A stretch of DNA of 64,000 nt from an uncultured Litoreibacter sp. (GTDB lineage: Bacteria > Pseudomonadota > Alphaproteobacteria > Rhodobacterales > Rhodobacteraceae). The position numbers were made by a program, and so were the translations under genes. The notes beneath the pieces were generated by a model. It made no database searches. It saw only the letters and a list, made by a program, of their open reading frames with translations, and was not told where the DNA came from. Each line of letters opens with the position of its first letter. Within the stretch, counting starts at the first letter, position 1. Of the stretch, positions 18,604 through 64,000 are shown piece by piece. Where the stretch lies: contig NZ_CANMXB010000001.1 in NCBI RefSeq assembly GCF_947501785.1, positions 3,724,501-3,788,500 on the forward strand, given 5' to 3'.

Positions 18604-19927
18604 CGCTCCTTTACAGGACATCACCTACCGCCGCGTGATGAAAATCGCGCTGCCTATCGTGCTGTCAAACGCCACTGTGCCGATCCTGGGCGCCGTCGAT
18701 GTGGGCGTCGTCGGCCAGTTGGGGGAGGCCGCGCCCATTGGCGCCGTCGCCATGGGCGCGATCATCCTGACCACGATCTACTGGATCTTCGGCTTTCTGC
18801 GCATGGGCACGGTCGGCATGGTGGGCCAAGCCGAGGGGGCAGGGGACCGCGCCGAGGTTTCCGCCCTTCTGACCCGTGCCCTGCTGATCGCGGGCGCGGG
18901 CGGGCTGCTGCTGATTGTCCTGCAACCGCTGATCTTTCTGGCCGCCTTCGCCCTGTCGCCCGCCACGCCCGAGGTCGAAAGCCTCGCCCGCGACTACCTC
19001 TATATCCGCATCTGGTCCGCCCCTGCCGCCATTGCCGTCTACGCGCTGACCGGCTGGCTGGTCGCGATGGAAAAAACCACCGGCGTCTTCTGGGTGCAGC
19101 TGGTGATGAACGGGATCAACGTGGCGCTCGATTTCCTCTTCGTGCTCGGCTTCGGCTGGGGGGTGGAGGGCGTGGCTATTGCCACCGTCATCGCCGAGGT
19201 CACGGGTGCCGCACTGGGCCTCTACCTCTGCCGCTCTGCCTTTGATCACCCCGCATGGCGCGAATGGCCGCGCATTTTCGCGCGGGCGCGGCTAATCAAG
19301 ATGATGCTGGTCAATGTCGACATCCTGATCCGCTCCGCGCTTTTGATGATCATCTTCTCGTCTTTCGTGTTCCTCGGGGCGGGCTTTGGCGACGTGACGC
19401 TGGCCGCCAACGAGGTGCTGATCCAGTTCATGTATATCACCGCCTATGCGATGGACGGTTTCGCCTTCGCCGCCGAGACGCTGATCGCCCGCGCCTATGG
19501 CCGCGGCCTGCCTGAACGCGTCCGCCGTTCGGCCATCGTCACCTCCGGCGGCGGGGCCATGGTTTGCGTGTCCATGTCCGCCTTCTTCGCGTTGGCAGGC
19601 CCGTGGCTGATCGACGTCATGGCCAAAGCCCCCGAGGTGCAGGCCGACGCGCGGCTTTATCTGTGGTGGATGGTCGCCGCCCCCTTGGTGGGCTGCGCCG
19701 CATGGATGCTGGATGGCATCTTCATCGGCGCCACCCGAGGCCGCGACATGCGCAACATGATGATGCTGTCTTTCGTCATCTACTGGGCCGCGATCTTCGC
19801 GCTGATGCCGTGGCTGGGCAACCACGGCCTCTGGGCGGCGCTCTTGATCAGCTTCATCGCGCGCGGCGTGACCCTTGGCGCAAAATACCCGGCATTGGAG
19901 CGCGCGGCGGCGGCGGGGGACGGGTAA
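18596..19927 (+). CDS. MATE-family efflux transporter (DinF-like)
   Basis: A 443-residue inner-membrane protein with about twelve hydrophobic helices in two MATE halves. The start MKIALPIVLSNATVPILGAV and VDVGVVGQLGEAAPIGAVAMG match the DinF branch. It exports cationic compounds in exchange for H+ or Na+. The start is GTG at 18596, overlapping the thioesterase gene by 8 nt; an internal ATG at 18638 would remove 14 residues. Confidence 0.9.
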   Translation: MASAPLQDITYRRVMKIALPIVLSNATVPILGAVDVGVVGQLGEAAPIGAVAMGAIILTTIYWIFGFLRMGTVGMVGQAEGAGDRAEVSALLTRALLIAGAGGLLLIVLQPLIFLAAFALSPATPEVESLARDYLYIRIWSAPAAIAVYALTGWLVAMEKTTGVFWVQLVMNGINVALDFLFVLGFGWGVEGVAIATVIAEVTGAALGLYLCRSAFDHPAWREWPRIFARARLIKMMLVNVDILIRSALLMIIFSSFVFLGAGFGDVTLAANEVLIQFMYITAYAMDGFAFAAETLIARAYGRGLPERVRRSAIVTSGGGAMVCVSMSAFFALAGPWLIDVMAKAPEVQADARLYLWWMVAAPLVGCAAWMLDGIFIGATRGRDMRNMMMLSFVIYWAAIFALMPWLGNHGLWAALLISFIARGVTLGAKYPALERAAAAGDG

Positions 19928-19953
19928 CTACTGCGCTCCAAACCTTAACAAGG

Positions 19954-20748
19954 TCACCGGCGCTGGCTTTGCCACCCGATGGCGTTCAAAGCGGCAAAGA
20001 GAAACGCGGCGACGCAGACAATCGATGGTCCCGCGGGGGTGTCGAACAGGTAGGCCCCCTGCAGCCCGGCAACCGCCGATGCCGCGCCAATGAATGCCGA
20101 GATTATGGCCATTGCTTCGGGGGTGCGGGCCAACCCCCTTGCGGCGGCGGCGGGGATGATCAACATCGCGGCGATCAGCAGGACGCCGACCACCTTTATG
20201 GCGACCGCAACGGTTATGGCCAGGCATAGCGTGAGGATCAGCTGTTCGCGTTTCGGGTTGATGCCGCTGGCATGGGCCAGCTCTTCGTTTAACGTTGATG
20301 TCAGCAGGGCCGCCCACCGCCACATGATCAAGGCGACCACCATGGCCGCGCCCCCCCAAATCACCAAAAGGTCGGTGCGCGACACCGCAAGAATGTCGCC
20401 AAAAAGGTAGGCCATCAGGTCAATCCGAATGCCCGACAGGAAGGAGACCGCAACAAGGCCGAAGGCCAGGGCGGAATGCGCCAGAACCCCCAACAGGGTA
20501 TCCATGGCGTAACCCCGTCCCGCCAGAAGCGTCACCGTCAGCGCCATCACAAGGGCCACGGCCAGGACGCCGGGGAAAATTGACATCTCAAAGGTCAGGG
20601 ACAGGGCCACGCCCAGGATCGCCGCATGGGCCGTGGCGTCGCCGAAATAGGCCATCCGCCGCCAGACCACGAAACATCCCAAGGGCGCCGCCGCAAAGGC
20701 CACGCCGACGCCGGCGAGCGTGGCGCGGGTCATGAAATCGTCAAACAC
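19954..20748 (-). CDS. znuB: Zinc ABC transporter permease ZnuB
   Basis: A 264-residue permease with about eight hydrophobic helices and the family stretch WRRMAYFGDATAHAAILGVAL. It forms the membrane channel of the high-affinity zinc importer with ZnuC and ZnuA. It is the last gene of zur-znuC-znuB and starts one base from the znuC stop (shared base at 20748). Confidence 0.93.
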   Translation of the reverse strand: MFDDFMTRATLAGVGVAFAAAPLGCFVVWRRMAYFGDATAHAAILGVALSLTFEMSIFPGVLAVALVMALTVTLLAGRGYAMDTLLGVLAHSALAFGLVAVSFLSGIRIDLMAYLFGDILAVSRTDLLVIWGGAAMVVALIMWRWAALLTSTLNEELAHASGINPKREQLILTLCLAITVAVAIKVVGVLLIAAMLIIPAAAARGLARTPEAMAIISAFIGAASAVAGLQGAYLFDTPAGPSIVCVAAFLFAALNAIGWQSQRR

Positions 20749-57355: not shown

Positions 57356-58399
57356 TTAGATGTTTACATACATCGTCGATACGAGCTGATTGCCCAGAGA
57401 GGTTTGCTCCATCCGCGTCGTTTGCGGCGAGGCGATGGGAAGCGCAATCTTTGCCGGTACCCCGTTATGGTCATTGAATGTCAGCGCGAAGCTGTCCCGC
57501 GCCGTTTGGGATTGTCGCAGTGGCAAGGCAGCTTTGGACATAAACTCAACTGCTGCCCGCCCCGTCACCTGCAGTGGTTTAGGGGAGGTGAATGTGTCTC
57601 CACCTTCTTTTGTGGTGATCGTCGCCGCTTGGTCTGGCAGGCCGGAAACCACGTATCGCCAGATTGACGTTCTGGGCTCCAGTTTCAAAATCAGGGTTTG
57701 AGGCTGGATAGTATTGCCGTCCAACACCATGCGCTGAGTTGGTGGAATGTCTTTGCCCGCTGGCGTCAGAGAAATGTAGCCGACGGCATTCGGCGTGTTC
57801 AGCAACACAAAGTCCATAACGGTGTCATGGTCAAACCGCAGGGAATACAGGCCCTCGGGCACGCCCGTTAACTTCAGGGCCAACGATTTGAATGCGGTTT
57901 GCAGGTTCGGCTCCTGCCAGTAGATCACCCCGTCACTGGCACCGACGACGCTGACTTGTTGGGCCGCGCGAGGGGTCCGAAAGGACTGCTGGAAGTCGGC
58001 TGATTTGACTGGCATCCCGACGCCTGCCGGGGGCGAAAAAAACCGGGCATCCATTCCTAGAGCACCAGTGGACGCAGTTTGGGTATCCCGAAACACAAGC
58101 ACGTCTTCCATCCCGGCGTCAGCGGTCTGCGTGAACGTATGAAAATATTGGGTGGATGAAGACAGGATAAACCCCAACGACGTCTCCGCCGGTATGGATT
58201 TCAGAGGGGCTACGCCGTTGTTTGTTTGATACCAGATTTCGGCCCCTGCCGCCGTCTTGCGCAGTCGGCATCCATAGCGCTGAAACATCAGCGCTGTGGT
58301 TTCTGAGGGTTCGATCTCGGCATCCTGCCAGATGTCGTTTGCGTAATAGCCGTGGCGTAAGTCCAGCACGCAAAGCAACGACCATTCGGTGGTACTCAT
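57356..58399 (-). CDS. eCIS-linked protein of unknown function (last gene of operon)
   Basis: A 347-residue protein without signal peptide or membrane helix. The first half (DIWQDAEIEPSETTALMFQR, then CRLRKTAAGAEIWYQTN, then ETSLGFILSSSTQYFHTF) resembles a conserved protein I recall from other extracellular contractile injection loci, where a P.aeT...l..yGl.f stretch precedes a FaL.l.....f segment. The second half is beta-rich. It overlaps the DUF4255 gene by 4 nt. It could be an accessory assembly protein or structural fibre/cap component; no evidence chooses between them. Confidence 0.65.
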   Translation of the reverse strand: MSTTEWSLLCVLDLRHGYYANDIWQDAEIEPSETTALMFQRYGCRLRKTAAGAEIWYQTNNGVAPLKSIPAETSLGFILSSSTQYFHTFTQTADAGMEDVLVFRDTQTASTGALGMDARFFSPPAGVGMPVKSADFQQSFRTPRAAQQVSVVGASDGVIYWQEPNLQTAFKSLALKLTGVPEGLYSLRFDHDTVMDFVLLNTPNAVGYISLTPAGKDIPPTQRMVLDGNTIQPQTLILKLEPRTSIWRYVVSGLPDQAATITTKEGGDTFTSPKPLQVTGRAAVEFMSKAALPLRQSQTARDSFALTFNDHNGVPAKIALPIASPQTTRMEQTSLGNQLVSTMYVNI

Positions 58400-58968
58400 G
58401 GCACGAGGTCACTGCTTGTGCCGGTGATGATCGGTACGTCTTCGGTCACCCAGTTTTCCTGAACACTGAGCATGCGAAGCTTGAACATCATCGAGGGCAT
58501 GTATTTGCCACCGAGAACCGTCCAAAGGTTATGTAATTCCTGCCGGTTCTGGTCGACCCATTCGGTGGTGAGCTTGTCCAGCCCCTGCGGCAAATCAGGC
58601 GCGCTGCTGGCGGTGTAGTGCGAGGAGCCTTGAAAAAAGCCCAATGCCGCGGACAGCAAAACGAGGCCGTCGGAATAGTTGGTCTCAAATTGAGCGGAGA
58701 CAAGGATATCGAGATTGATCCGCATGGCGGGGTTCATTTTGGCAATGGACTTGTCTTCGACCTTCGACTTCGGGTGAGTGGCCGTGGCTGTCGCGTCTCG
58801 CTCGATATTGACAAGGGTAAGAACGATTTTGTTGTTCGTCGCCAGCGGAGGGGTGCCGCCAGGGCCTGTGACGGAGGACGTGACGACCCAGTCGCTGGCA
58901 GATGGAAACCGCGACATCAGGTATTGATTTAAGCGTTTCTCAATGAAGAGAATTGTTTGTTGGATCAT
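58396..58968 (-). CDS. DUF4255 protein, CIS cap/terminator (Pvc16-like)
   Basis: A 190-residue protein of the Pvc16/DUF4255 family: IEKRLNQYLMSRFPSASDWV, NKIVLTLVNIERDATATA, and the middle motif MNLDILVSAQFETNYSDGLV-like (INLDILVSAQF). The homolog Pvc16 terminates the sheath-tube end (cap). It overlaps the ATPase gene by 4 nt. Confidence 0.85.
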   Translation of the reverse strand: MIQQTILFIEKRLNQYLMSRFPSASDWVVTSSVTGPGGTPPLATNNKIVLTLVNIERDATATATHPKSKVEDKSIAKMNPAMRINLDILVSAQFETNYSDGLVLLSAALGFFQGSSHYTASSAPDLPQGLDKLTTEWVDQNRQELHNLWTVLGGKYMPSMMFKLRMLSVQENWVTEDVPIITGTSSDLVP

Positions 58969-60308
58969 TGCTCGGCCCTTCGTACGCGGTCTTGTTTCAG
59001 GAATTCCCGCCGGATAGCGGCCTCCATATCTTTCATCGACAATGCCTGCCGTTGCGTGCGCGCGGCTTCCAGCATTGCGGTGCGCAGACTGTTGGCGATG
59101 GTGGCTCCGGTCAGCTCAAATTTCTCCGCAAGCACATCGATGTCGATGTCCGCGCCTTTCCAGCCGCTGTCACCAAACGCGTTGCTCCATAGCAGGTGCC
59201 GCTCAGCGGCGCCCGGTTCCGGGAAAAAGATGGTTGATTGGAATCTGCGGGAAAATGCCGGGTCAATGTTGCTCTTCAGGTTGCTGGCAAGGATCACCAA
59301 CCCGGTAAATGTTTCAATGCGTTGGAGGATAAAGGCAACCTCCTGATTGGCATGGCGGTCATTGGAGGATGAGACCGCGGTGCGCTTTCCGAACAGCGCG
59401 TCTGCCTCGTCAAAAAACAAGATCCAGCCTTTGTTTTCGGCCTCGGAAAAGACCCGCGCCAGATTTTTCTCGGTCTCGCCGATCCATTTCGAGACGATCA
59501 GTGACAAATCAACGCGGTAAACATCGCGACCGGTTTTTTGACCCAGAAGAGAAGCCGACAGTGTTTTCCCTGTACCGGGTGGGCCGTAGAACAGGCTGCG
59601 ATAGCCCGGGGCGATCAGACGCCCAGGCCCAGAGGTGGCTGTAATGTTGCTCTCAAATTTGACCCAGGCCAAAATTTCGTCCAACGCATGTCTGGTTTGA
59701 GCGGGCAAGATCAGATCGTCCCAGGTCAGTTGCGTCTCTATCCGTTGAGCAGGAAAGCCGAGCACCGACGCCGCTTGATCTGCAAACGTGGAGCCCAATG
59801 GATCTAGCAGAGCGGTGCCTGGCGATAATGGGCTGTCATTGAACCCGCCTCCCTCTGGATTGCCCAGCACAAGGTACCGGCCGCGCATTAGGGCACTGTC
59901 CTCCGCAAATGTTGTGGAAAGCCGGAGCCGTCGGTCCAGCTGACTTCCTGCCAACAAAAATATCGCGGTTTCAACCGTTGGCCTGAACCCTGACTGGCTG
60001 GTCTGGGTGCCGCCAAATTCGGTGAATCGACGGTTCAGCGCTTCGTTGCGGATCATGAATTGGTCGAGCGCTTCGGGCTTCAGCAGCGGGGCGAGCGCGA
60101 GGATGAAAACCAGCCTTTCATCGTCGCTAAAACCACCTTCTTTCAGGAAACTGGCGTATTCTGACGGATCATTGGCCAGGTCAGGTGGTGCGCTATCGGG
60201 CAGTTTGGATTGATCAAACGCGGCGTCAAAGTGAAGCGTAATGGTCCGTTCAATATGGGCGCTGAGCCAGTCAAGCTCTCGGCCGAGCGTGTCTGCATTT
60301 GTTGTCAT
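58965..60308 (-). CDS. AAA+ ATPase of contractile injection system (Pvc15-like)
   Basis: A 447-residue AAA+ protein with an N-terminal eCIS-specific domain (about 1-220) and one ATPase domain: Walker A FYGPPGTGKTLSASL (about 242-249), Walker B GWILFFDEADALFGKR, sensor 1 ILASNLKSN and arginine finger FSRRFQ. Pvc15-type ATPases are needed for cargo or assembly of extracellular injection particles. The start at 60308 gives the ATGA overlap with the tape-measure gene; the frame to 60347 is longer. Confidence 0.88.
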   Translation of the reverse strand: MTTNADTLGRELDWLSAHIERTITLHFDAAFDQSKLPDSAPPDLANDPSEYASFLKEGGFSDDERLVFILALAPLLKPEALDQFMIRNEALNRRFTEFGGTQTSQSGFRPTVETAIFLLAGSQLDRRLRLSTTFAEDSALMRGRYLVLGNPEGGGFNDSPLSPGTALLDPLGSTFADQAASVLGFPAQRIETQLTWDDLILPAQTRHALDEILAWVKFESNITATSGPGRLIAPGYRSLFYGPPGTGKTLSASLLGQKTGRDVYRVDLSLIVSKWIGETEKNLARVFSEAENKGWILFFDEADALFGKRTAVSSSNDRHANQEVAFILQRIETFTGLVILASNLKSNIDPAFSRRFQSTIFFPEPGAAERHLLWSNAFGDSGWKGADIDIDVLAEKFELTGATIANSLRTAMLEAARTQRQALSMKDMEAAIRREFLKQDRVRRAEQ

Positions 60309-62689
60309 TGGTCGCGCCACTTCACATGTAAAGGGTGCGCCATCCAACTAAGTGAAATCGTCGAAATTGCCCAGGTCAGGCGGTCCAGCAGCATGTCAAA
60401 CGGGCCGCTTTCGACATGCAAAACCGTCTCCTCGAGCTGAAGTTTTAGTACCCCGCTTCGGGTCAGGAAGGTTTCCCTCAGCCCGTCGGAAGATGTGTTT
60501 TCCAAGCCCGGCCAATTCTGGGTCACGGCATGAAGCAAGTCGGCCGACAAGCTTCGTTCTTCCTGAGTAAGCGTTTGCCCCACCTCGGCCACGTCATGCA
60601 GTGGGATGCCGCACAACAGCTTTGGGAGACCGACGGCGTGTTCTGCAGGGGTCTCCTCGCCGGTTGCAAGGAAATGTACGAGCTGAGCTGATTTGTGTTG
60701 CGCGGCGCGGGACCGAAATTCTCCATCCACAAACAAATCCAACGCGCGCAGAAGCTGCGGAAGAAACGGCCACAGCAAAACGCAACCTGCGTTGTCGACA
60801 TAGATGGTTTCCGGCATGTCCATGGCAGATTTGCTTTCAAGCCCTTTCCTTTGGGTCGCGCCGCCCGGGCCGCGCAGAAAGGCGGACGCCGTTTTGGCCT
60901 GTGCAACCAGCAATTCGGCGACGTCCGCCGGTGTTTCTTTGTTGGTGTTGAGCATGGCCGTTGCCAGATCATCAGGCAATAGGCCCGTTTGCTCGGCCAA
61001 TGTGCCGAACACCTCGCGGACCAAGACGCGGCATCGGTCAGGTCCAGACTGTGTTTCGAACGTTGCCGTCAGGGCTGCCGCGGCTGCAATCCGGAATGCG
61101 GCGTTATCAGTCTCAAGTATCACCCCTTTTGCCATATCCTGCAGCACATTTACGGCCTCAAAGAATGTTCGGTCCGCCCCAACGGCGTTCAAGAGCTCAA
61201 TCCGAGTTGATGGTTCAAGGAGGTCGACCAAGCGGTTGCGGCAAAAGGGGAATGCGTCAATCAGATCACGAAGCGTCGCGGCGTCCGACGTTATGATGTC
61301 CGACACTTGGTTGCGCAGTTCCAAGATCGTTTGCCCGCCCATCAACCCGTAGCGCAAAAAGGTGTGCAATTGGGTTGCGGATGCTGGCCACTCCTGCGCC
61401 TTTGTTGCGGCTGGTGGACGTTGCGACCCCGCTGGGTCGCGACGGTTTGACATGATCGCGTCTACGGCGGTCTTGATCATGGTCCGCTGATCAGGCCGCA
61501 ACCTCTTGGACGCGTCGATAAGATCGGCTGGATGTAGATCCGCTGAACCCAGCAGTCTTGAGAAAGTGTCCTGCAGGATCGCCTCGCCATTGGATGGTTG
61601 TTGTTGGAGCCCCACCATCAACAGTCGCCGCACTAGGGCAGCCTGCCCGTGGAAATGGGAGGTGTCGGCCAGGTCCACCAGTAAGTTGGCATGTGCTTCG
61701 GTGCTGGAGAACAAGACGCGAAGCAACGACATTAACGACCACGGGGGCAGGGCTTCGATTAGCCTGGTCACGTTGATAGCGCGCATTTCAGCCGATTTGA
61801 CCGAGCGGGCCAATGTGCCAAGCTGCTGTTGGTCAAGCCCTGCGAATATCTCGGCAAGTCGGCTGAGCGCCTCTGCGGACGGCGTGCCAATTTCCGTCAG
61901 TGCGTGCAGTGCCGATAAAAACTCCGGCACGGAGGCAATCTTCGCCGGTTCCTTGCTTTTGCTGGGTGGGTTGTCGCCGCCGAAAGACGGCGCTGCGGCA
62001 GGGATTGGTGCGTCAATTGTGGACGCCGCCAGATAGGCCTCGATACGCCGAATATCTATCGCTGCCCTATCGGAAATGAGGTGCAGAATGGCCAGCCGGG
62101 AACGGGATCGAAATTCGACAACATTCCATCCAAGGCGGTGCCGCAGCGCGTCAAGCGCAGTTTTGATCTGGTCGGCGTCATGAATGCCAGTAAGGGCCGC
62201 GAACTCGGGCCAAGTGGTAATCCCGACAAGGCGTTTGGCCGCCGTAGCGCTTTCAAGCGCGCGCTGCAGCAAGGTCTGCCGCTGTTGAACCGGCATCGCC
62301 AACATGTGCTGCGCGACGTTGGCCGGCTCAACAATCCCGCCGGCAATGGGTTGCCCGACGCCAGTCGCCAACATGTTGAACGCGGCGTCCGGCGGATCAT
62401 TCTCGACCTGGTCAGTTGTGTTATTAATGGCACTTGGGACGTCGCCTTCCAGATTGCTCAGGGCCGCGATGATCCGCTCCTCGGTGCGCGGTTCCAATTC
62501 GCGCATTGGCAGGTCGCCCAGGTCTACTTCCAGCCTCCCTAGGCGGAACGATTTATCGCCAAAACCGGTGTCGATTGCGGCCTCCAGACGGGTTGCACCA
62601 AAGTGTGACAGGCGTGATAGAAGCTGCTCTCCGGCCCGCATTGAGGGGACGTCGAATTCGAACATCACTCGGGACACCTGATGCGTCAT
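60305..62689 (-). CDS. CIS tape-measure-type protein
   Basis: A 794-residue protein that begins HQVSRVMFEFDVPSMRAGEQ and continues SHFGATRLEAAIDT and RLGRLEVDLGDL, which is the start of the contractile injection system tape measure family (CIS_TMP). The middle is helix-rich, as expected for a length ruler; the C-terminal part has YVDNAGCVLLWPFLPQLLRA, a motif also seen in that family. It overlaps the genes on both sides by 4 nt. Confidence 0.82.
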   Translation of the reverse strand: MTHQVSRVMFEFDVPSMRAGEQLLSRLSHFGATRLEAAIDTGFGDKSFRLGRLEVDLGDLPMRELEPRTEERIIAALSNLEGDVPSAINNTTDQVENDPPDAAFNMLATGVGQPIAGGIVEPANVAQHMLAMPVQQRQTLLQRALESATAAKRLVGITTWPEFAALTGIHDADQIKTALDALRHRLGWNVVEFRSRSRLAILHLISDRAAIDIRRIEAYLAASTIDAPIPAAAPSFGGDNPPSKSKEPAKIASVPEFLSALHALTEIGTPSAEALSRLAEIFAGLDQQQLGTLARSVKSAEMRAINVTRLIEALPPWSLMSLLRVLFSSTEAHANLLVDLADTSHFHGQAALVRRLLMVGLQQQPSNGEAILQDTFSRLLGSADLHPADLIDASKRLRPDQRTMIKTAVDAIMSNRRDPAGSQRPPAATKAQEWPASATQLHTFLRYGLMGGQTILELRNQVSDIITSDAATLRDLIDAFPFCRNRLVDLLEPSTRIELLNAVGADRTFFEAVNVLQDMAKGVILETDNAAFRIAAAAALTATFETQSGPDRCRVLVREVFGTLAEQTGLLPDDLATAMLNTNKETPADVAELLVAQAKTASAFLRGPGGATQRKGLESKSAMDMPETIYVDNAGCVLLWPFLPQLLRALDLFVDGEFRSRAAQHKSAQLVHFLATGEETPAEHAVGLPKLLCGIPLHDVAEVGQTLTQEERSLSADLLHAVTQNWPGLENTSSDGLRETFLTRSGVLKLQLEETVLHVESGPFDMLLDRLTWAISTISLSWMAHPLHVKWRDQ

Positions 62690-64000
62690 TTTGGGCTGTC
62701 TGCGGGAAATTGATCCAGCTCAGCCAAAAAGGCAGCGCAAGCATTGCGGTTAATCAGTTGTATCAGCGCGCCCGGATCCGCCATGCCGCCGTTCAGCCAG
62801 GTCTTATGGGCTTGCGCCAATGTCGCGTAGGCCTTTTTGGGCAGCCAAAAAATCGAAGAAGTCAGGTGGGCGGGTAAGCAATCAGACAGCGTTCTTTCCG
62901 TCAGACTGCGAATGTCGGCATGGCCCGCCTTCGCAGGCGTTTCGAAGAACGCGCTTAGCTGACCATCAAAAAATGGGGTGGGGAAGAGTTGGCGTTCGAT
63001 GGTCAACCGGTCCGTGGTCAGCAGTTTCTTGGCCCAGTTGATCTCGGCAAAGGAGCCGAACCTTTCGACAAAGAAAAACTGCGGGTGATTTGGAGCCGAA
63101 CAGCTCAACGCCACGGTATAGTCCGGCATCGGCGATGCGGCGAAGTCGGCGCCGTTTCTCAGGGCCTCGGCAATGGCGACGCGGGTCTGCGGCCATTGAT
63201 GGGTCTGGATCGGGTCGCGCAGGACAGCCAGCAGCGACACTTTGCCGGCGCGCACGCGGAAGGCCTGAACCTCGTCCAATTGGTAGGAACCGGACGCTAA
63301 TGTGGCATGTTCGATGATCAGGCAACGCTCCGTGTAGCCTGACTTCAGCCGCACCCGTGTTTGAAGAGCGGTTTCCTTGTAGTCGGTCAGGTCCGGGCCC
63401 AACCCGCGATCGCGGCCAAGCGTCACGCAATGGGACAGGAAGGCACGTTTCAGCCGGATGCGGGTGTCGTCGGCATGTTCCTTCGTGATACCGGCCGCGC
63501 GCAGCCGCAGCCAAAGTGCGTCATTGTCAAAAACTTCTCCGAAGCGGGCAAGCATATGATCCAGCGCGCGGTCGTTTCGGTCGCGGTAGGGATCGTTATG
63601 GGAATTCAGGTTTGACAGGTCGCGAACGTAGTGGGCGTGCCAGTCGCTATCTTTGCCTGACCCGAGTATCTGGTCCACATGTGGAGGGTTGTCAGGGTTG
63701 GGCTTTGCGGAGGCAATGGGTTGCGCGAAGTAACTCGCATCGGACGCCTTGAAGGAAAAGAGCTCTGCAATGTGATCTAGTTGCCCAAGCTGGTCGGCCA
63801 GAAGCTGTTCGAACAAGAACAGGTAGCCTTTGAGCTGCCGGATTGCGGCCTGATGGGCGATACTGGCAGGCTTGGGTGATTTTTGTAACCCGAATTCTCC
63901 CAAACCGTAAATCTGCGGAAACAGATGCTGGATGGATCGGTAGCGGTCCAGGTGGCGATTGGCGTTACCTTGGGGGATGGTTGCGTAGGGCAGAGTTTTG
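62686..64000 (-). CDS. eCIS-conserved protein, partial (N-terminus beyond window)
   Basis: At least 437 residues are visible; the frame runs without a stop to base 64000, and TTG at 63903 is not the start because the sequence before it (LPYATIPQGNANRHLDRYRS, then QHLFPQIYGLGEFGL) still belongs to the conserved family I recall from eCIS loci. Further on, AAIRQLKGYLFLFEQLLADQ and QLGQLDHIAELFS follow. The function is unknown, possibly a baseplate or assembly factor. It overlaps the tape-measure gene by 4 nt, placing it in the same operon. Confidence 0.78.
   Translation of the reverse strand, partial: KTLPYATIPQGNANRHLDRYRSIQHLFPQIYGLGEFGLQKSPKPASIAHQAAIRQLKGYLFLFEQLLADQLGQLDHIAELFSFKASDASYFAQPIASAKPNPDNPPHVDQILGSGKDSDWHAHYVRDLSNLNSHNDPYRDRNDRALDHMLARFGEVFDNDALWLRLRAAGITKEHADDTRIRLKRAFLSHCVTLGRDRGLGPDLTDYKETALQTRVRLKSGYTERCLIIEHATLASGSYQLDEVQAFRVRAGKVSLLAVLRDPIQTHQWPQTRVAIAEALRNGADFAASPMPDYTVALSCSAPNHPQFFFVERFGSFAEINWAKKLLTTDRLTIERQLFPTPFFDGQLSAFFETPAKAGHADIRSLTERTLSDCLPAHLTSSIFWLPKKAYATLAQAHKTWLNGGMADPGALIQLINRNACAAFLAELDQFPADSPK

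Follow-up and report, generated by a model that had tools for sequence, protein, structure and literature searches.

Is a contractile injection system (CIS) released from the cell that builds it, or is it fired from inside that cell? For most CIS clusters the matter is unsettled, and sequence is reportedly a poor guide (PMC12998442). The question is raised here by a cluster at the end of the window, by which we mean the whole 64,000-nucleotide stretch that was analyzed (C1:3724501-3788500 in the 3.9-Mb genome of what appears to be a marine roseobacter). Coordinates are those of the window, extended beyond 64000, such that a window position equals the C1 position minus 3724500; papers are cited by PMC number from excerpts of their text. 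The cluster is certain to be a complete CIS of the group that contains AFP, PVC, AlgoCIS, and tCIS, and its fiber-type protein, Cis13, has a predicted pair of membrane segments. We judge it probable, if only modestly so, that Cis13 is a membrane anchor and that the machine docks at the inner membrane. In other words, the syringe may be moored to its own membrane and not set free.

Two predicted membrane segments in Cis13

The gene cis13 lies between cis11 and cis12, and it overlaps cis11 by 4 nt. The first ~40 residues of the protein make up an N-terminal domain with a homolog in the Cis13 of Anabaena: a profile (A5), drawn from 15 Cis13 proteins with no cyanobacterium among them, matches the solved Anabaena protein, All3316, over residues 1-39 (E = 1.4e-5). 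Furthermore, a hidden Markov model (HMM) of 52 Cis13 proteins, from which the members described below with an internal segment pair (hairpin) and the helix-bearing cyanobacterial members had been left out, recovers both groups, including all 11 cyanobacterial proteins. The window Cis13 thus appears to possess an N-terminal domain of the baseplate-binding type.

We compared 84 loci, made up of the best 80 of 494 from a genome scan together with the window's own locus, G298, G301, and G574. A Cis13 gene was found in 71 of these 84 and in 14 of 26 further loci of the order Rhodobacterales; 10 of the 12 further loci that lacked it also lacked a recognized Cis12 over the length read, and some of the 12 are cut short by the end of a contig. 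On a simplified hydrophobicity scale, every 19-23-residue stretch of 85 Cis13 proteins was then given a score for membrane insertion. Three classes emerged, whose counts are not independent since many of the rows are close relatives. An internal pair of segments occurs in 5/85, namely in the window genome, an uncultured Roseovarius (L022), Pseudaestuariivita atlantica (L023), Thiocapsa marina (L026), and a genome of the window's own family (G706); the group thus comprises four Rhodobacterales, the window genome included, plus Thiocapsa. A single C-terminal helix, as published for Anabaena, was scored at -4.0 to -5.0 in 11 cyanobacterial proteins; the window Cis13 does not have this type of helix but two internal segments instead. 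The other 69 have neither membrane part (best score 1.23 or worse, second-best 4.18 or worse), among them one cyanobacterial protein (L083, Crocosphaera) and one from Algoriphagus (L067).

As a control, each Cis13 was shuffled 400 times, and stretches of 19-23 residues were scanned in real and shuffled sequences alike. For the five proteins, the lines below give the E-value with the 52-protein HMM, the scores of the best and second segments, the number of shuffles (of 400) that equal the best segment and both segments, lysine or arginine residues (K/R) before the first segment, and K/R and aspartate or glutamate residues (D/E) in the 15 residues after the second.

Window genome: E = 1e-7; scores -2.1 and 0.29; shuffles 18 and 5; K/R before, 3; after, K/R 6 and D/E 0
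Roseovarius (L022): E = 9e-10; scores -4.5 and -1.9; shuffles 3 and 1; K/R before, 0; after, K/R 6 and D/E 0
P. atlantica (L023): E = 7e-9; scores -2.3 and 2.5; shuffles 6 and 2; K/R before, 2; after, K/R 4 and D/E 0
T. marina (L026): E = 2e-5; scores -5.1 and -3.6; shuffles 1 and 0; K/R before, 4; after, K/R 2 and D/E 1
G706: E = 7.5e-4; scores -3.5 and -0.8; shuffles 11 and 3; K/R before, 2; after, K/R 4 and D/E 0

Given the shuffles, the case rests on the five proteins together more than on the window protein alone. In all five, the segments fall at one site of the alignment, between parts of the C-terminal domain that adjoin each other in other Cis13 proteins. The excess of positive charge after the second segment fits a cytoplasmic C-terminus, less so for Thiocapsa, while those ahead of the first segment say less. 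A sample of 398 genomes across the phylum yielded three more Cis13 proteins, none with a segment under the cut of 1.5; a fourth match had no CIS gene in the stretch read.

The gene cluster and its cap module

The system to which Cis13 belongs consists of 16 genes, all on the minus strand, from 57356 to ~76473, as found by reading the chromosome on beyond the window. In the order of transcription, these are:

75763-76473, minus: alanine-rich protein, 236 aa; first gene, just upstream of the sheath
74246-75727, minus: sheath, 493 aa; Phage_sheath_1, E = 3.6e-8
73763-74218, minus: inner tube, 151 aa; gp19, E = 8.8e-49
73264-73752, minus: inner tube, 162 aa; gp19, E = 5.7e-43
73077-73241, minus: DUF5908 protein, 54 aa; E = 2.3e-9
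72411-73061, minus: Cis7, 216 aa; CIS_tube, E = 5.1e-44
70627-72411, minus: VgrG-like spike Cis8, 594 aa; Phage_base_V, E = 2.8e-21
70325-70627, minus: PAAR protein, 100 aa; E = 2.4e-23
69874-70320, minus: gp25/Cis9, 148 aa; E = 1.4e-21
66109-69849, minus: Cis11, 1246 aa; Baseplate_J, E = 5.7e-6
65060-66112, minus: Cis13, fiber-type, 350 aa; start set by homologs and the 4-nt overlap with cis11
62686-65055, minus: Cis12, baseplate wedge, 789 aa; All3315 match; cut by the window edge at 64000
60305-62689, minus: Cis14, tape measure, 794 aa; CIS_TMP, E = 5e-77
58965-60308, minus: Cis15, AAA+ ATPase, 447 aa; AAA, E = 1.5e-27; ATG at 60308
58396-58968, minus: Cis16A, cap protein, 190 aa; Pvc16_N, E = 1.9e-25
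57356-58399, minus: Cis16B, cap adaptor, 347 aa; profile match to All3326

An earlier note, made from the letters of the window, had taken the five genes at 57356-64000 for the distal end of a larger CIS, and they are indeed the distal part of the complete cluster. All five frames are in place, and the four junctions (Cis12/tape measure, tape measure/ATPase, ATPase/cap, and cap/last gene) are 4-nt overlaps as described, given the ATPase start at 60308. The family signatures that the note had read from the tape measure, ATPase, and cap are far beyond chance. Its conserved RQLKGYL protein proved to be Cis12, whole at 789 aa, which matches All3315 of Anabaena (E = 6.7e-54; best stretch, residues 163-551 against 185-580), Algo12 (4.2e-43), Pvc12 (5.3e-11), and Afp12 (2.6e-9). 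The strand continues beyond 64000 with the Baseplate_J protein, gp25, PAAR, VgrG, CIS_tube, DUF5908, two gp19 tubes, and the sheath. Thus, the CIS hallmarks are present from the sheath, gp19-type tube, CIS_tube protein, VgrG spike, PAAR tip, gp25, Cis11, and Cis12 to the CIS_TMP tape measure, AAA+ ATPase, and Pvc16-type cap. All 16 frames are open, and the biggest intergenic gap is 35 bases.

The last gene had been listed as part of the cluster, which it is, and as unknown, which it no longer is. Searched as a single sequence, its 347-aa product had no match in Pfam, NCBIfam, PHROGs, or the PDB. Iterated HMM searches found homologs in 7 of the 84 loci; in five of these (the window's own, L022, L023, L026, and G574) the homolog comes immediately after a Pvc16_N-type cap gene, and the remaining two sit at the edges of their stretches. 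When six of the seven were combined into a profile (A4), it matched three solved cap adaptors: All3326 of tCIS (E = 3.4e-26), SalCis16b (9.9e-17), and that of AlgoCIS (4.1e-13). From these matches and the adjacency to the cap gene, we identify the protein, at the level of sequence, as the cap adaptor Cis16B. Its neighbor Cis16A matches the solved caps 9r9n_B (1.8e-21), Algo cap (2.6e-13), and All3327 (4.9e-12). The cluster therefore contains the AlgoCIS-type cap module of short cap protein plus cap adaptor. In AlgoCIS the adaptor reportedly stabilizes the cap and last sheath layer, and its loss leads to misassembled particles (PMC8894135). In another alphaproteobacterial CIS, from a different family (G574:C12, L019+L020), the genes run cap, cap adaptor, sheath, and the N-terminal HMM detected no Cis13.

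By Pfam, one flank of the cluster holds Gfo/Idh/MocA oxidoreductases and a PfkB kinase, and the other holds LamB/YcsF, PfkB, EamA, a metallo-beta-lactamase-fold protein, TetR, urate oxidase, and an ABC transporter. As the earlier note had supposed, phage genes are missing beside the cluster: the 10 flanking genes serve metabolism, transport, or regulation, and none encodes a capsid, portal, or terminase, the remaining neighbors having been read as translations only. Placement in a Rhodobacterales-type (roseobacter) chromosome, which the note had also proposed, is supported as far as can be judged from plasmid records: the first 24 kb of the window match 76 of them, including 48 from Phaeobacter, nine from Leisingera, and five each from Paracoccus and Azospirillum, the top-scoring being Paracoccus at 77-78% identity. 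Cis13 and Cis16B had no tblastn match in 72,556 plasmid records. Among the seven genomes searched, the alanine-rich protein at 75763-76473 has a homolog solely in G706 (L161), besides the window genome.

Moored or released

There is a precedent for a moored particle. In Anabaena, the N-terminal domains of Cis13 bind the baseplate and its C-terminal helices enter the thylakoid membrane, and Cis13 without the transmembrane part yields free-floating CIS (9/14; PMC8894136). By analogy, the window Cis13 would moor its particle to the inner membrane. The N-terminal domain would bind the baseplate in the cytoplasm, while a helical hairpin of each Cis13 would enter the inner membrane and leave both ends of the protein on the cytoplasmic side, so that the loaded particle would be held baseplate-down. 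On a trigger, perhaps contact or envelope stress, the sheath would contract and the PAAR-tipped tube would be driven outward through the cell's own envelope, as in the type VI secretion system (T6SS) or tCIS, as opposed to release and targeting by fibers.

The gene content of the cluster bears on this reading. The sole fiber-type gene among the 16 is cis13, with one 236-aa product lacking an assignment, and no long receptor-binding fiber was recognized in the cluster, to which the search for fibers was confined. A catalog of extracellular CIS (eCIS) fibers left out loci that had no fiber candidate as possibly intracellular (PMC12923769). With no long fiber recognized among the 16 genes and a predicted segment pair in Cis13, a membrane-docked particle seems at least as likely as an extracellular one. 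For the same two reasons, the label "extracellular" that the earlier note had attached to the system is not supported, and it should be marked as open.

We compared the cluster with known systems. The tCIS of Anabaena (PMC8894136; PDB 7b5h, 7b5i) provides the best match for both Cis12 and Cis16B, shares the N-terminal domain of Cis13 (All3316), and likewise has a membrane segment in Cis13. However, the membrane part is an internal pair in the window and one C-terminal helix in tCIS; Cis12 is 789 aa long as opposed to 1335 and lacks the tCIS extension (All3315 residues 610-1100); and no crown gene was recognized in the cluster, for which no Cis19 profile was run and where no unassigned large gene is left. 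AlgoCIS of Algoriphagus (PMC8894135; PDB 7aeb, 7adz) is similar in its short cap and cap adaptor, its Cis12, and its gene set. Yet it fits an extracellular mode and has tail fibers, Alg19, of which no such gene was recognized in the window cluster, and Cis13 from an Algoriphagus relative (L067) lacks a membrane segment. For Amoebophilus, which has a T6SS of subtype iv, it has been suggested that Cis13 contributes to anchoring at the inner membrane, although the excerpted text mentions no transmembrane segment for it (PMC12210884), and the likeness is one of description. T6SS subtypes i-iii differ in that the CIS cluster has no IcmF/TssM, the genome's one IcmF match lying elsewhere (C1:2597641).

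Several observations weigh against an anchoring role. The second segment of the window protein is marginal (0.29), and shuffles equal its better segment in 18/400 cases and both in 5/400. Of the P. atlantica segments, one is clear (-2.33) but the other is weak (2.48), and the Thiocapsa protein has little positive charge after its second segment. Two congeners, G298 and G301, have a segment-less Cis13, and a direct profile of three Cis13 rows reaches All3316 only at E = 0.083. More generally, the segments are predicted with a simplified scale, and the mode of action of a CIS, one paper cautions, is not reliably told from sequence (PMC12998442). Anchors may also be separate proteins, as reported for CisA in Streptomyces (PMC12237407) and, in the form of a six-helix candidate, for haloarchaea (PMC11566945). 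Since mode is hard to read from sequence and separate-protein anchors are known, missing segments in other Cis13 proteins are no proof of free particles.

The alternative that survives best is an ordinary extracellular CIS, in which lysing cells would free the particles and the segments would be buried in the Cis13 trimer or inserted into a target membrane. The literature describes its AFP, PVC, and AlgoCIS relatives as extracellular, the cap module is similar to that of AlgoCIS, and the genome encodes eCIS_core proteins, a family named for eCIS. Nevertheless, we consider this alternative unlikely. Besides the long fiber, a lysis gene was also not recognized among the 16 genes (no search was aimed at lysis genes); 69 Cis13 proteins, including one from Algoriphagus, lack the segments; and hydrophobic hairpins exposed in several copies would be expected to lower the solubility of a free particle.

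Less probable still, to the point of being doubtful, is a cytoplasmic, self-directed CIS of the Streptomyces kind that would fire at the producer's membrane under stress and kill the cell, with Cis13 bringing the machine there. The tCIS has been linked to ghost-cell formation (PMC8894136), and the Streptomyces CIS with CisA, compared here by its described architecture, resembles the window system in having no clear fiber homolog and a membrane protein encoded beside the baseplate genes (PMC12237407). CisA, however, is a separate single-pass protein with a periplasmic domain that stays outside the particle, whereas here the segments belong to a protein with an N-terminal domain of the baseplate-binding type. 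In addition, the Streptomyces CIS is of lineage IId (PMC12237407), whereas the best match of the window Cis12 is tCIS. Finally, a myovirus prophage or decayed phage tail, which the phage descent of the sheath, tube, and baseplate genes might suggest, is hardly credible given the CIS-specific CIS_TMP, Pvc16_N cap, cap adaptor, and DUF5908, the 16 open frames, and the character of the 10 flanking genes.

A link between the Cis13 anchor and phototrophy, that is, anchoring in photosynthetic membranes, was suggested by reaction-centre genes in the hosts of the window, L022, L023, and L026. It was rejected because such genes, present in 161 of 390 genomes of the order, are not found in the hairpin host G706, and because they also occur in 8/13 hairpin-less Cis13 hosts of the sample and in the hairpin-less congeners G298 and G301.

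Origin and distribution of the predicted membrane part

We built trees from VgrG, gp25, and Cis7 (90 loci) and from Cis12 (100 rows), both by quick searches without bootstrap. In the first, the five hairpin loci group together with an SH-like approximate likelihood ratio (SH-aLRT) of 92, or 99 for the four without Thiocapsa, and adjoin Trinickia (L100), whose Cis13 has no such segment. In the Cis12 tree the five are joined at 98, with a long-branch warning. The groups for the approximately unbiased (AU) test were chosen after the tree was seen: a clade of the five with 11 cyanobacterial systems, 10 of them helix-bearing and the other that of Crocosphaera, was rejected (p-AU 2.6e-12), and placing the four hairpin loci other than Thiocapsa with the main Rhodobacteraceae CIS clade was disfavored (p-AU 0.013). 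Since the membrane part is an internal pair in one lineage and a C-terminal helix in the other, and their joint lineage is rejected, the simpler reading is that the hairpin anchor arose apart from the cyanobacterial one; an anchored common ancestor followed by several losses would be less simple. A broader proposal, which we hold tentatively and at something short of even odds, is that a CIS lineage of alpha- and gammaproteobacteria turned into a cell-anchored, T6SS-like weapon by way of the Cis13 hairpin, independently of T6SS and tCIS, such that a fiber gene was turned inward, from gripping to mooring, more than once.

The hairpin-less CIS of other Rhodobacteraceae (G034, G745, G689, and relatives) share the host family, the core genes, and the position of Cis13 between Cis11 and Cis12. 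They differ in belonging to another clade of the tree, in a Cis13 without membrane segments, and in a ~1100-aa protein, encoded after the ATPase, with a signal peptide and C-terminal membrane helices. This protein (L134:56-3391, minus, and homologs) was found in 16 loci, 13 from Rhodobacterales and three others, several of them incomplete; it has three C-terminal membrane helices where complete and no Pfam match. In the main Rhodobacteraceae CIS clade, it might serve as an envelope anchor of a further type. That clade also has a ~300-aa protein with a lipoprotein-like start, as judged by eye, which lies between gp25 and Cis11 in 13 loci (L134:14738-15697, minus, and homologs) and has no Pfam match.

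Such CIS loci are a minority in the order, but not exceptional (24 of 389 sampled genomes besides the window genome). CIS_tube was matched in 29 of 390 genomes, consisting of the window genome, 24 at E = 5e-26 or better, and four near 1e-5. Among the Cis13 genes of these CIS_tube-positive genomes, with 26 of the 28 other loci fetched, two segments were present in the window genome and G706 only. The tape measure PF19268 alone was found in 3/21 genomes of the genus and 4/385 of the class, three of the latter over the family cutoff.

The authors of the tCIS study found a transmembrane part of Cis13 only in filamentous cyanobacteria (PMC8894136). Our literature search, which did not reach most subscription papers or any preprints, turned up no Cis13 membrane segment described outside cyanobacteria, and the excerpts of PMC8213781 and PMC13314943 do not mention one. 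Were a second lineage to carry another kind of membrane part at one set position in Cis13, this protein would be a repeated switch between released and anchored states. As both states, hairpin and hairpin-less, occur within the Rhodobacteraceae, the idea can be tested inside one family, and Pseudaestuariivita atlantica and Thiocapsa marina are named relatives with the trait.

The window genome appears to hold other contractile systems. A second sheath locus (C1 ~880138 to at least 903451) was considered as a prophage, which was rejected since its genes read like those of a different type of CIS, the second in this genome; the locus adjoins a glucokinase gene and encodes a 528-aa sheath, a gp19 tube, a Pvc16_N protein, an AAA+ ATPase, a weak CIS_tube match, and a 1300-aa eCIS_core protein. 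The IcmF (TssM) match at C1:2597641-2598573 (E = 6e-72) points to a T6SS as a third contractile system of the genome. Far from both CIS loci lies a gene for a lone 607-aa eCIS_core protein (C1:2293413-2295236), which is a candidate for cargo. In Thiocapsa there was no eCIS_core match; relatives of the 607-aa protein occur in all five of the other Rhodobacterales CIS hosts compared, three of them listed as hairpin hosts (G706, G785, and G786) and two hairpin-less (G298 and G301). Because of its presence in the hairpin-less congeners, the protein was rejected as a mark of the hairpin lineage. In G706, a 541-aa eCIS_core gene (G706:C110 ~18723-20348) is found near the hairpin CIS, on the opposite strand.

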